NCBI RefSeq assembly: GCF_028776105.2
Contig: NZ_CP145606.1
Coordinates: 1,116,001 to 1,180,000, forward strand
DNA: 64,000 nt
Source of the DNA: Neisseria leonii
GTDB lineage: Bacteria > Pseudomonadota > Gammaproteobacteria > Burkholderiales > Neisseriaceae
Reading direction: 5' to 3'
Positions 1,615-4,940 of this stretch are shown here, piece after piece (positions within the stretch are counted from its first letter, which is position 1; each line of letters opens with the position of its first letter). The notes beneath the pieces are model-generated. The model did not search any database. It worked only from the letters and a program-made list of their open reading frames with translations, and had not been told where the DNA came from. The position numbers and the translations under genes are program-made.

Positions 1615-3399
1615 TTACAAACCCTGCGCTTTGACTTTTTCCGCACCGGATTCCAGCTTGTTCAAAGCCGACAGATAGGCTTTGGCCGTTGCCGCCAGAA
1701 TATCGGTATCCGCCCCCTGCCCGTTGACCACACGGCTGCCGCGCGCCAGACGCACGGACGTTTCGCCCTGACTTTCTGTACCCTGCGTCACGGCATTGAC
1801 CGAATAAAGCTGCAAGACCGCGCCGCTTTGCGCCACGCTTTCGATGGCTTTGAAAACCGCGTCCACCGGCCCGGAACCTGTGGCCTCGGCCTGTTTTTCC
1901 TCGCCTTTGACGCTGAACACAATCTGCGCGCGCGGCAGTTCGCCGGTTTCGGTGACGATTTTCTGCGAGATAAAGCGGTAGTTGTCCTGATTGAGGGTTT
2001 CCATCTCGTCGGACACCAGCGCGTGCAGGTCTTCATCGAAAATTTCGCGTTTTTTGTCGGCCAGTTCTTTGAAACGGGCAAACGCGGCATTCAAGGCTTC
2101 TTCGCTGCCCAACTCAATGCCCAAATCGGCCAGCTTGGTTTTGAAAGCGTTGCGGCCGGAGAGCTTGCCCAGACTCAAACGGTTGGCCGCCCAGCCGACC
2201 GATTCGGCCGACATGATTTCATAGGTTTCGCGGTGTTTGAGTACACCGTCCTGATGAATGCCCGATTCGTGGGCAAACGCGTTGGCACCGACCACAGCCT
2301 TGTTCGGCTGCACGGGATAGCCGGTGATGGTGGAGACCAGTTTGGAAGCGGGCACAATCTGCGCCGTGTCGATGCCGGTTTCCAGACCGAACACATCGTG
2401 GCGCACTTTCAGAGCCATCACAATTTCTTCCAGCGAGGCATTGCCCGCCCGCTCGCCCAAACCGTTGACGGTGCATTCCACCTGACGCGCGCCGCCTTGG
2501 AGCGCAGCCAGCGAGTTGGCCACGGCCAAACCCAAATCGTTGTGGCAGTGTGCCGACCATACGACTTTTCCGCTGCCCGGGGTTTTGGCAATCAGCTCGC
2601 GGAACAAGGCTTCGGTACGGTGCGGAACCGAATAGCCCACGGTATCGGGGATATTGATGGTGGTCGCACCCGCCTCAATCACCGCACCGCAGATTTCGGC
2701 CAGAAAATCAATGTCCGAACGCAGCGCGTCTTCGCATGAAAATTCGACATCGTCGGTATATTCTTTAGCGATTTTTACCGCCTTAACCGCCGCTTCCACC
2801 ACTTTGGCCGGTTTCATTTTCAGCTTGTGTTCCATATGGATCGGGCTGGTGGCGATAAAGGTGTGGATCCGTTTTTTGGCCGCAGGCGCAACGGCTTCGC
2901 CCGCTTTGCGGATGTCGCTTTCCACCGCGCGCGACAGCGAGCAGACGGTGGAGCGGGTAAGCGTTTTGGCGATTTCGTTTACCGCCTCCCAGTCGCCCGG
3001 GCTGGCGGCGGCGAAACCGGCCTCAATCACATCGACCCCCAGTTTTTCCAACTGGCGGGCAACGCGGATTTTTTCTTCTTTGGTCATGGCGGCGCCGGGC
3101 GACTGTTCGCCGTCGCGCAGGGTGGTGTCAAAAATAATGACGCGGTTGTTTTGGGGCATGGCCTGCTTCTCCAGAGTGGTTTGTTGATGCATAAAGGCGT
3201 TCAAATCCAGCGGCCGTCCCTGCGCTTCGGCCAGCGCGCCGAGCCGCCGCAGCTGGTTGAGCGGCAGCGAACCGCGGGTGCGCCATTTATAAATCGCCGC
3301 CGCGCTGGCTGCGTGTTCGGGATCTTGTTCTTTTAGTGCTTCGGCCAGCGCGCTCACGCCGCCGAAATAGGCAATTAAACGGTCGATATCCAACTGCAT
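1615..3399 (-). CDS. leuA: 2-isopropylmalate synthase with an N-terminal HTH-like extension
   Basis: Condenses acetyl-CoA with 2-oxoisovalerate, the first committed step of leucine synthesis. Residues 81-594 are ordinary Leu[17 protein letters not shown], the metal-binding [11 protein letters not shown], and a C-terminal regulatory domain. Residues 1-80 are extra and resemble a Cro/YdaS-type helix-turn-helix ([13 protein letters not shown], then [12 protein letters not shown]). No stop separates the parts. An internal ATG at 3159 ([10 protein letters not shown], the usual LeuA start) has GGAG 9 nt upstream, so a short form could also be made; the 3399 start has only a weak GGA. The promoter holds TGTCCAA motifs that may be operators (see findings). 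A DUS hairpin follows the gene. Confidence 0.93.
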
Positions 3400-3403
3400 A
3401 ATG

Positions 3404-3536
3404 TGTCCAATCGCGAAAGGCCGTCTGAAAATGACAAGTGGCGATTATACCCAAATTGGACATTTCGACAAGCATTGCTCGCTATATTTTAAAAATCCTT
3501 ATCCCAAAGAGATATTTTTAGACTTATTGTCCAAAT
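3404..3536. promoter_or_regulatory. Three TGTCCAA(A/T)T motifs around the leuA promoter, candidate operators
   Basis: TGTCCAAT occurs at 3404-3411 (plus), its exact complement ATTGGACA at 3455-3462 inside the promoter spacer, and TGTCCAAAT at 3528-3536 (plus). The middle copy is extended to CCAAATTGG, a 9-bp palindrome. One copy lies between the first leuA ATG and the -10, one between -10 and -35, and one upstream. The likely ligand is a repressor; the HTH domain fused to LeuA is the natural candidate, which is inference. Confidence 0.5.
3444..3471 (-). promoter_or_regulatory. leuA promoter (TTGTCG-16-TATAAT)
   Basis: On the minus strand, TTGTCG (3471-3466) and TATAAT (3449-3444) are separated by 16 nt, about 45 nt upstream of the first leuA ATG. 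The spacer contains TGTCCAATTTGG (3462-3451), so a protein bound there would block RNA polymerase. Confidence 0.7.
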
Positions 3537-3800
3537 TTGCACAGCAAATCTCGGTAGGCGACATGAAGCGCAGAGACTTTTTTAGTTGGGAACTTTGGAT
3601 ATATTTACATTCATGGCGCGGTTTCGGATAACAGAATCATGCCTGATGAAAGACCGTCAATAAAGCCGGAAAATGACAGGACAGCAACTTTCATATCGGG
3701 AAGAAGCAATACCGTCTCCTTTCCATTATTCCCCGCCCGCTCAGGCCGCCTGAAAGTTGAAAATATAGTACACTGTCCGTTTTCCGCACCCTGCCCTGCC
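3472..3800. other. Intergenic stretch between divergent leuA and the methyltransferase gene
   Basis: Apart from one TGTCCAAAT motif and an AT-rich segment at 3481-3540, I see no gene here. A promoter-like TATAGTACA near 3766 could serve the downstream methyltransferase. In-frame codons from 3639 to 3800 precede the methyltransferase but lack family similarity. Confidence 0.5.
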
Positions 3801-4940
3801 ATGCAGCCGATTACCACTTCCCGCACGCCCGTGATGTTCTGGCATACTGAAAGCAGCCAAAAACCGCCCCGACACGCCGTTTTTGCCGACCGCCTTTCGG
3901 CCGGTGCCCTGCTGAAAGCCGCCCGCGACCATACGGCAACGGTATGGACGGGCGATTTCCACCAAGCCAAGCAGGTGTTGGCCGCGCTGAAAAAACGTGT
4001 GCGCAGCCCTGCCAAACCGCCCGCCGCAACAGCAACTGATATTCAGACGGCCTTCCACCGCCACCGCCTGAGGCAGGCACAGCAAAGCCGTCTGATCAAT
4101 ATGCTGGCGGTAGAAATCCTGCCGGATTTCCGTCTCGGCCTGCCCCGCGCGCCCGATGTGCGCGCCGCACTGGCCGATGTCTTCGCCAGCCCCAACCGCG
4201 AACCCTTCCTATTGCCGCTCAACCAGCTGCTCGGCTTTATCGGCGCACACGAATGGCACAAAAAAGGCGTGTTTGTCGAACCCCTGAATGCGCGTATCCA
4301 CGTCCCCTTCGGCGTATTCTCGCCCCTGCGCGGCGAATATCTGGCCTTGGCTGCCGACGCGCCGCTGCCCGAAGGTGTGCAAACCGCATTCGACATCGGC
4401 ACCGGCTCGGGCGTACTGGCCGCCGTTCTGGCCAAACGCGGCGTCGCCCGCATCAGTGCCACCGACAACAATCCGCGTGCCATAGCCTGCGCCCGCGCCA
4501 ACTTCGCACGGCTGGGGCTGAACCATATCGCCCTGCTGCAAACCGATCTGTTTCCCGACGGCCGCGCCGACTTGATTGTCTGCAACCCGCCGTGGCTGCC
4601 CGCCAAACCGACCTCGGCCGTCGAAACCGCACTTTACGACCCCGACAGCGCGATGCTGCGCGCATTCCTGCAACAGGCGGCGCATCATTTGAACCCCAAC
4701 GGCGAAATCTGGCTGATTATGTCGGATTTGGCCGAACATCTCGGCCTGCGCGCGCCGGACGAATTAAACCGTCTGTTCCAAGCCGCCGGTTTCAGCGTCA
4801 AAGGCCGTCTGAACGCACGCCCGACCCACGCCAAAGCCGCCGCCTCAGACGACCCGCTGGCCTTCGCCCGCCGCCGCGAAACCACCACACTCTACCGCCT
4901 GCAACCCGTATCGCCTTTCCTGCCACCGAAAGCCGTCTGA
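3801..4940 (+). CDS. Class I SAM-dependent methyltransferase (small-domain/HemK-like)
   Basis: A 379-residue protein with SAM-binding motif I (DIGTGSGVLAAVLAKRG) and the NPPW tetrapeptide typical of N-methyltransferases that modify nucleobases, glutamine or ribosomal proteins. The N-terminal half (FHRHRLRQAQQ, PFLLPLNQLLGFIG) is a separate region without a motif I recognise. The ATG at 3801 was chosen because the region before it has no family similarity; an in-frame ATG at 3639 gives a longer form. The target is unknown; an rRNA or release-factor substrate is possible. Confidence 0.8.
   Translation: MQPITTSRTPVMFWHTESSQKPPRHAVFADRLSAGALLKAARDHTATVWTGDFHQAKQVLAALKKRVRSPAKPPAATATDIQTAFHRHRLRQAQQSRLINMLAVEILPDFRLGLPRAPDVRAALADVFASPNREPFLLPLNQLLGFIGAHEWHKKGVFVEPLNARIHVPFGVFSPLRGEYLALAADAPLPEGVQTAFDIGTGSGVLAAVLAKRGVARISATDNNPRAIACARANFARLGLNHIALLQTDLFPDGRADLIVCNPPWLPAKPTSAVETALYDPDSAMLRAFLQQAAHHLNPNGEIWLIMSDLAEHLGLRAPDELNRLFQAAGFSVKGRLNARPTHAKAAASDDPLAFARRRETTTLYRLQPVSPFLPPKAV

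Follow-up and report, generated by a model that had tools for sequence, protein, structure and literature searches.

Can a biosynthetic enzyme serve as the repressor of its own gene? The leuA locus of Neisseria leonii raises this question. In the 64,000-nucleotide stretch analyzed here (contig NZ_CP145606.1, positions 1,116,001 to 1,180,000; hereafter the window), leuA is a single uninterrupted open reading frame on the minus strand (1615..3399). It encodes a 594-aa protein in which a helix-turn-helix (HTH) domain precedes 2-isopropylmalate synthase. A first-pass annotation had proposed that this enzyme represses its own gene, and the proposal is supported as far as sequence can test it, since an operator-like site at the leuA promoter tracks the DNA-binding domain. 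We give a probability of roughly 0.8 to the reading that this LeuA is bifunctional, both enzyme and leucine-pathway repressor, and probably gated by leucine. Binding, repression and gating are what we infer.

The fused LeuA and the operator at its promoter

The N-terminal domain (residues 5-65; 3205..3387, minus strand) matches NCBIfam NF046037 (carphisopro) at 66.8 bits in the whole protein and 71.1 bits in the first 80 residues, above the curated cut-off of 38. In a profile search, LeuA equivalog models cover residues 83-592 (NF002087, 902.8 bits against a cut-off of 729), and both PF00682 and the allosteric domain PF08502 are above cut-off. The HTH-like extension of about 80 residues, described in the first pass as in frame with a full LeuA, is thus borne out. 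The P22 Cro family PF14549 stays below its gathering cut-off of 30.2, scoring 19.7 bits in the first 80 residues and 14.9 in the whole protein. The predicted structure of residues 1-82 is a helical domain (mean pLDDT 84.7), for which Foldseek ranks phage Cro proteins at the top with modest scores, one of them in a complex with operator DNA; it does not point to the missing DNA-binding fold that the annotation had named as a refutation. The HTH profile gave weak matches only against the sequences of solved structures (XPH1, E 0.19; a Cro protein, E 0.42; an aminotransferase, E 0.67). By family and modeled fold, LeuA joins a putative DNA-binding domain and an enzyme in one chain, an arrangement of the PutA and BirA kind. 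The architecture was suspected to be on record already, and the domain is: NF046037, itself a domain model only, counts the window's N-terminal domain as a member, and NCBI-named 2-isopropylmalate synthases of 593-596 aa exist.

The promoter, on the minus strand, is assigned by position, with a predicted -35 box TTGTCG (3466..3471) and a -10 box TATAAT (3444..3449) separated by a 16-bp spacer. Three predicted operators accompany it. O1 (3518..3534, centre 3526) is the palindrome TTGGACA-ATA-AGTCTAA, a 13/14 match; the O2 half-site TGTCCAA (3456..3462, implied site centre 3464) lies within the spacer; the O3 half-site TTGGACA (3404..3410, implied site centre 3402) lies between the -10 box and the long ATG, 4 nt 5' of the latter. 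The three centres are evenly spaced at 62 bp. The placement of one motif copy between the -35 and -10 boxes and another between the -10 box and the ATG was therefore read correctly at the outset. The count of three copies of TGTCCAA(A/T)T stands for the 7-mer TGTCCAA (3404-3410, 3456-3462 and 3528-3534), and fails for the full motif, which is exact at 3454-3462 and 3528-3536 and reads TGTCCAATC in the third copy. Within one window this motif alone is weak evidence, because at least two copies arise in 20 of 100 window shuffles; the three 7-mers are 3 of 14 in the window (shuffle mean 6.0). The O1 palindrome, of which the upstream TGTCCAA is one half, is the sole site with at least 12/14 matches across the 64 kb.

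A riboswitch or known RNA leader at 3000-4000 was considered and rejected, with no Rfam match up to E 1. The leuA 5' leader also carries ATTTTCAGACGGCCTTT (3432-3416, minus strand), which resembles a Neisseria DNA uptake sequence, and a similar pair lies 3' of leuA near 1600-1550.

Comparison across genomes gives the operator its weight. Its consensus, TTRGACA-N3-TGTCYAA, is a 17-bp inverted repeat, scored as present at 12 or more of 14 positions within 300 bp upstream. The site occurs at 66 of 76 fused Neisseriaceae leuA loci and at 24 of 29 fused loci from six other families, thus at 90 of 105 overall, and the remaining 15 score 11; as the consensus was read from the upstream DNA of these same 105 loci, the counts are partly circular, and this speaks against our reading. 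The unfused, spacer, reversed-pattern and leuC comparisons are free of that circularity. None of 39 unfused leuA loci of the same order has the site, which answers the comparison, proposed in the first pass, of upstream regions with and without the extension. Among nine spacer lengths, length 3 alone stands out (runner-up, 4/76 and 2/29), and the reversed pattern is found at 1/76 Neisseriaceae loci and 0/29 others. Dinucleotide shuffling of the 76 Neisseriaceae regions leaves a mean of 0.15 with a site (maximum 1 in 20 rounds) against 66 observed, and shuffling of the other 29 leaves a mean of 0.

The Neisseriaceae loci come from 83 genomes, 76 of which have the domain above cut-off. Among the other seven, LeuA is cut by a contig end in G030, is a fragment only in G039 and lacks the HTH in G063, and no LeuA match was found in G007, G040, G060 and G077 (58-86% complete). 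Two of the 76 loci (L046, L047) share one genome, G036 (listed contamination 4%); the two fused leuA genes differ, through duplication or a mixed assembly. Of the 31 fused leuA frames of other families among the matches listed, 29 make up the other-families set (G213 and G329 left out); outside it are L085, which has no LeuA catalytic motif, and L105, which is another protein. L126, whose HTH is cut by a contig end, was also excluded. The unfused set, 40 loci of which 39 were scored (L164 not located), comes mainly from the upper part of a 100-genome list with LeuA in 86, fused ones included.

Two genera hold both kinds of LeuA, and in both the operator and the fusion are present or absent together. 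In g33, the fusion is found in a single genome of seven, together with a 13/14 operator, and the LeuA core of that genome is 87% identical to a sibling's; the other six have no fusion and no site of at least 11/14 within 700 nt. In g8, the LeuA of G063 begins at the position of the internal ATG discussed below, downstream of another gene that we take to be clp-type, and no site of at least 11/14 was found in the 4.5 kb examined; at the five fused sibling loci (L070-L074) the leuA sites match 13 or all 14 positions. The leuC gene adds no contrast in g8, because the operator is absent from all three leuC loci read, fused or unfused.

Operator geometry and further target genes

The site keeps a set relation to the promoter. 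In 65 of the 76 Neisseriaceae loci, TGTCYRA occurs 45-100 nt 5' of the ATG. The -10 box lies 6 nt from the O2 half-site where it reads TATAAT (45 loci) and 7 nt from it where it reads TATATT (17 loci), a fixed spacing in 62 of 76. In the other families the form TTGACnnnnnGTC places a -35-like TTGAC inside the palindrome (26 of 29 loci, against 0 of 39 unfused regions). There, O1 and O2 centres (23 loci) are separated by 41, 53-54, 62-65, 72-76 or 83-84 bp. When each of 16 genera contributes a single value (the smallest, if it had two), the distances show a phase concentration of 0.82 at 10.5 bp, a value reached by 0 of 20000 random sets; the best period in a scan is 10.3 bp. A separate run that tried every choice of genus value gave 0.72 to 0.84, the lowest being reached by 2 of 20000 random sets. 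The 58 non-zero Neisseriaceae distances fall at 44, 52-54 and 61-64 bp among closely related loci, after exclusion of 7 of 65 distances that were zero (one site chosen twice). Phasing of O2-O3 and O1-O3 is weaker (R 0.65 and 0.47) and was not used. Variation by whole turns at a constant face of the DNA is what looping or same-face cooperation would predict.

These features suggest how the protein may act. A dimer of long LeuA, with its two Cro-like HTH domains, would bind the palindrome, whose half-sites lie one helical turn apart. Protein bound at O2, where it would cover the -35 box or the spacer between -35 and -10, and at O1, some 40-85 bp upstream on the same face, would form a looped or cooperative complex, and this complex would repress leuA; repression, rather than activation, is what we infer.

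Other genes appear to be under the same control. In this genome the palindrome with one mismatch or fewer occurs at three places: at leuA, about 120 bp before leuC, and inside one gene that we read as clpB. An operator of at least 12/14 precedes leuC at 52 of the 58 Neisseriaceae loci scored, that of N. leonii among them (59 loci from 81 family genomes with leuC; L233 was not located). None of 30 leuC loci from the other fused families has one, nor does any of 30 unfused loci. An ancestral leuC operator is not supported by these counts, and control of leuC, which long LeuA would repress in most Neisseriaceae, looks like a later extension. The target-gene set is wider than the first-pass annotation had envisaged, because leuC has the operator in most of the family. 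Exact palindromes number 23 in the 83 Neisseriaceae genomes: 8 at leuA, 4 at leuC, 5 some 150 bp upstream of a transporter gene and 6 elsewhere; the reversed pattern gives 13, a background that again tells against our reading. The transporter is of the SNF family (152.8 bits at the one locus scanned; the other four have the same N-terminal sequence), and all five sites are in genus g10 (Snodgrassella), in some members of which this gene would probably be repressed too. A larger regulon in the N. leonii genome itself was rejected: at up to two mismatches the pattern gives 28 sites and its reversed control 22, which leaves weak sites uninterpretable.

The probable regulatory signal and two predicted protein forms

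Leader-peptide attenuation is a form of leucine control of leuA transcription, the same task that we propose for the LeuA repressor. Unfused relatives often encode a leader peptide (ATG start, at least three consecutive leucines): 23 of 45 rows (G103 included twice), against 3/76 and 0/29 in the two fused sets. If any start codon is allowed, the numbers become 24 against 11 and 3. At leuA the HTH fusion seems to replace this attenuation. The leucine-rich leaders of the unfused relatives (L142-L181, L313-L318) often contain GLLLR.

A second line of evidence comes from genome G282, which has a fused leuA (L084) and a 555-aa LeuA paralog (L085:1010-2677, plus strand). In the paralog DTTLRDGEQ has become DASLRPAHL, HCHND has become CCHDG, and barrel segments are missing; the altered residues presumably include metal ligands. 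The HTH (56.4 bits) and the allosteric domain (106 bits) are kept, the catalytic domain scores only 66 bits, and a 13/14 palindrome begins 174 bp 5' of the start. This retention is what would be expected if the parent was already a leucine-sensing regulator. Three protein clusters are related to the paralog (99, 91 and 51% identical), and the 51% cluster also retains the HTH (48.4 bits) and the allosteric domain (89.2 bits). An adjacent frame, cut by the locus end, matches yeast-type LeuA models.

Similar HTH domains occur on other enzymes. Class V aminotransferases fused to a Cro/YdaS-type HTH (L109-L112 and L114-L123; L113 is left out) have an inverted repeat 5' of the gene at 13 of 14 loci, TTGTCA inverted against TGAC or TGAT, of the type TTGTCAAA..TTTGACAA, found 0 times in five shuffling rounds. 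A GalU (UTP-glucose-1-phosphate uridylyltransferase) fused to an HTH (L125:1189-2280, minus strand) has the palindrome TGTTCAATTTAATGAACA at its start, at one locus. Family scans of one aminotransferase fusion and one GalU fusion found no allosteric domain. Such fusions suggest that turning an enzyme into its own regulator in this manner is a recurrent event. The same kind of HTH is also present on frames of 451 and 458 residues (L105:974-2326 and L108:108-1481), which we take to resemble the RhuM family.

Against this background, long LeuA might be a purely autogenous repressor that holds its own level constant with no metabolite signal, leucine affecting activity alone. The absence of the operator from leuC outside Neisseriaceae, where it stands at leuA, fits such a protein and weighs against our reading, as do the own-promoter palindromes of the aminotransferase and GalU fusions, whose scanned representatives have no allosteric domain. 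We consider it improbable in view of the operators at Neisseriaceae leuC and, in some genomes, at the transporter gene, the leucine-codon-rich leaders that unfused relatives often have and fused ones lack, and the paralog that keeps its allosteric domain better than its catalytic one. In the reading that we prefer, the effector is most likely leucine, which the allosteric domain of LeuA would sense just as it does for feedback inhibition.

The operator before leuC would also suit any trans-acting factor, and this too counts against LeuA as the repressor. A separate leucine-responsive regulator could bind the operators, leaving the LeuA HTH some other role; a candidate is the meningococcal global regulator NMB0573, described in passages of PMC4138514 as responsive to leucine and methionine. 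An unlinked regulator is not expected to track the HTH as closely as the operator does, at 90 of 105 fused and 0 of 39 unfused loci with both within-genus contrasts concordant, and a LeuA paralog without the catalytic motif retains both the HTH and the operator. We regard a separate regulator as distinctly unlikely, and LeuA itself as the probable repressor.

Within the frame lies a second start. The internal ATG at 3159, preceded by GGAG (3169..3172, minus strand; 9 nt 5' of the ATG), is confirmed as first described, and would yield a short form (1615..3159, minus strand) that is 2-isopropylmalate synthase without the HTH. Among the 101 fused loci that possess the internal ATG, 92 have a ribosome-binding match of at least 4 nt 5' of it, compared with 12% at random codons, 10% at other in-frame ATGs and 20% in shuffled linkers. 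This conservation suggests that a long repressor-enzyme is made together with a short enzyme, the internal start supplying additional enzyme without the DNA-binding domain.

The extreme alternative is that translation begins at 3159 alone, so that the upstream frame is unread and the HTH extension is a start-site artefact. The better ribosome-binding match at the window's internal ATG than at the long one (GGAG against GGA), and the position of the starts of unfused relatives near it, tell for the artefact and against a DNA-binding LeuA. We find this very hard to credit, given that HTH codons vary mostly at third positions, as core codons do (differences at positions 1/2/3 among Neisseriaceae of 0.19/0.08/0.51, against 0.15/0.07/0.48 in the core), that the domain is so widespread in the family's genomes, and that the internal ATG is missing from 4 of the 105 fused loci (L057-L060). 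At these four, barring some other start, the enzyme must be the long protein. The outcome named earlier as damaging, production of the short form only, is thus unlikely.

Known systems and significance

Enzymes that carry their own DNA-binding domain have precedents. PutA of enteric bacteria is a proline dehydrogenase whose N-terminal domain binds DNA and which represses the genes of its own pathway. LeuA likewise combines a metabolic enzyme with a predicted N-terminal DNA-binding domain, and would likewise repress. PutA has a ribbon-helix-helix, is catabolic and is released by its substrate, whereas LeuA is Cro-like, biosynthetic and probably responsive to the end product. BirA of E. coli is an HTH fused to biotin ligase, and the two are alike in having an N-terminal HTH on a biosynthetic enzyme, a palindromic operator and a signal of the end-product type, presumed for LeuA. 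BirA differs in HTH family and in enzyme, and senses a reaction intermediate; in LeuA, leucine would be detected by an allosteric domain of its own, and there is, unlike in BirA, a conserved internal start from which the enzyme alone could be made.

The structure of N. meningitidis LeuA (3RMJ) represents the same catalytic protein and aligns with residues 80-444 of the LeuA encoded in the window. Its chain, 370 residues long, lacks the HTH and stops short of the C-terminal allosteric domain. Because the solved meningococcal structure is without the HTH domain, the regulatory half of LeuA looks unstudied. In titles and abstract starts of the open-licence literature we found no account of an HTH on LeuA, of the operator, of a leucine regulon or of a comparable fusion to an enzyme, nor the name carph-isopro; the domain was known before, and for the operator, the regulon and the replacement of attenuation we found no description there. 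Passages of a gonococcal study (PMC3032703) tentatively take anaerobic induction of leuA as a sign of low leucine and defer Lrp to later work.

Taken at its widest, and with confidence somewhat better than even, the picture is that in the Neisseria-Chromobacterium group, gonococcus included, LeuA is the leucine repressor, has displaced attenuation, loops two phased operators and can become a catalysis-free leucine-sensing transcription factor, and that Cro-like domains have been captured repeatedly by housekeeping enzymes as autorepressors. We thus propose, for a large bacterial group that includes the gonococcus, a leucine-pathway regulator with a precise operator. The locus would offer a clear case of one gene apparently exchanging RNA attenuation for a protein repressor, and the G282 paralog an apparent case of an enzyme turning into a transcription factor.
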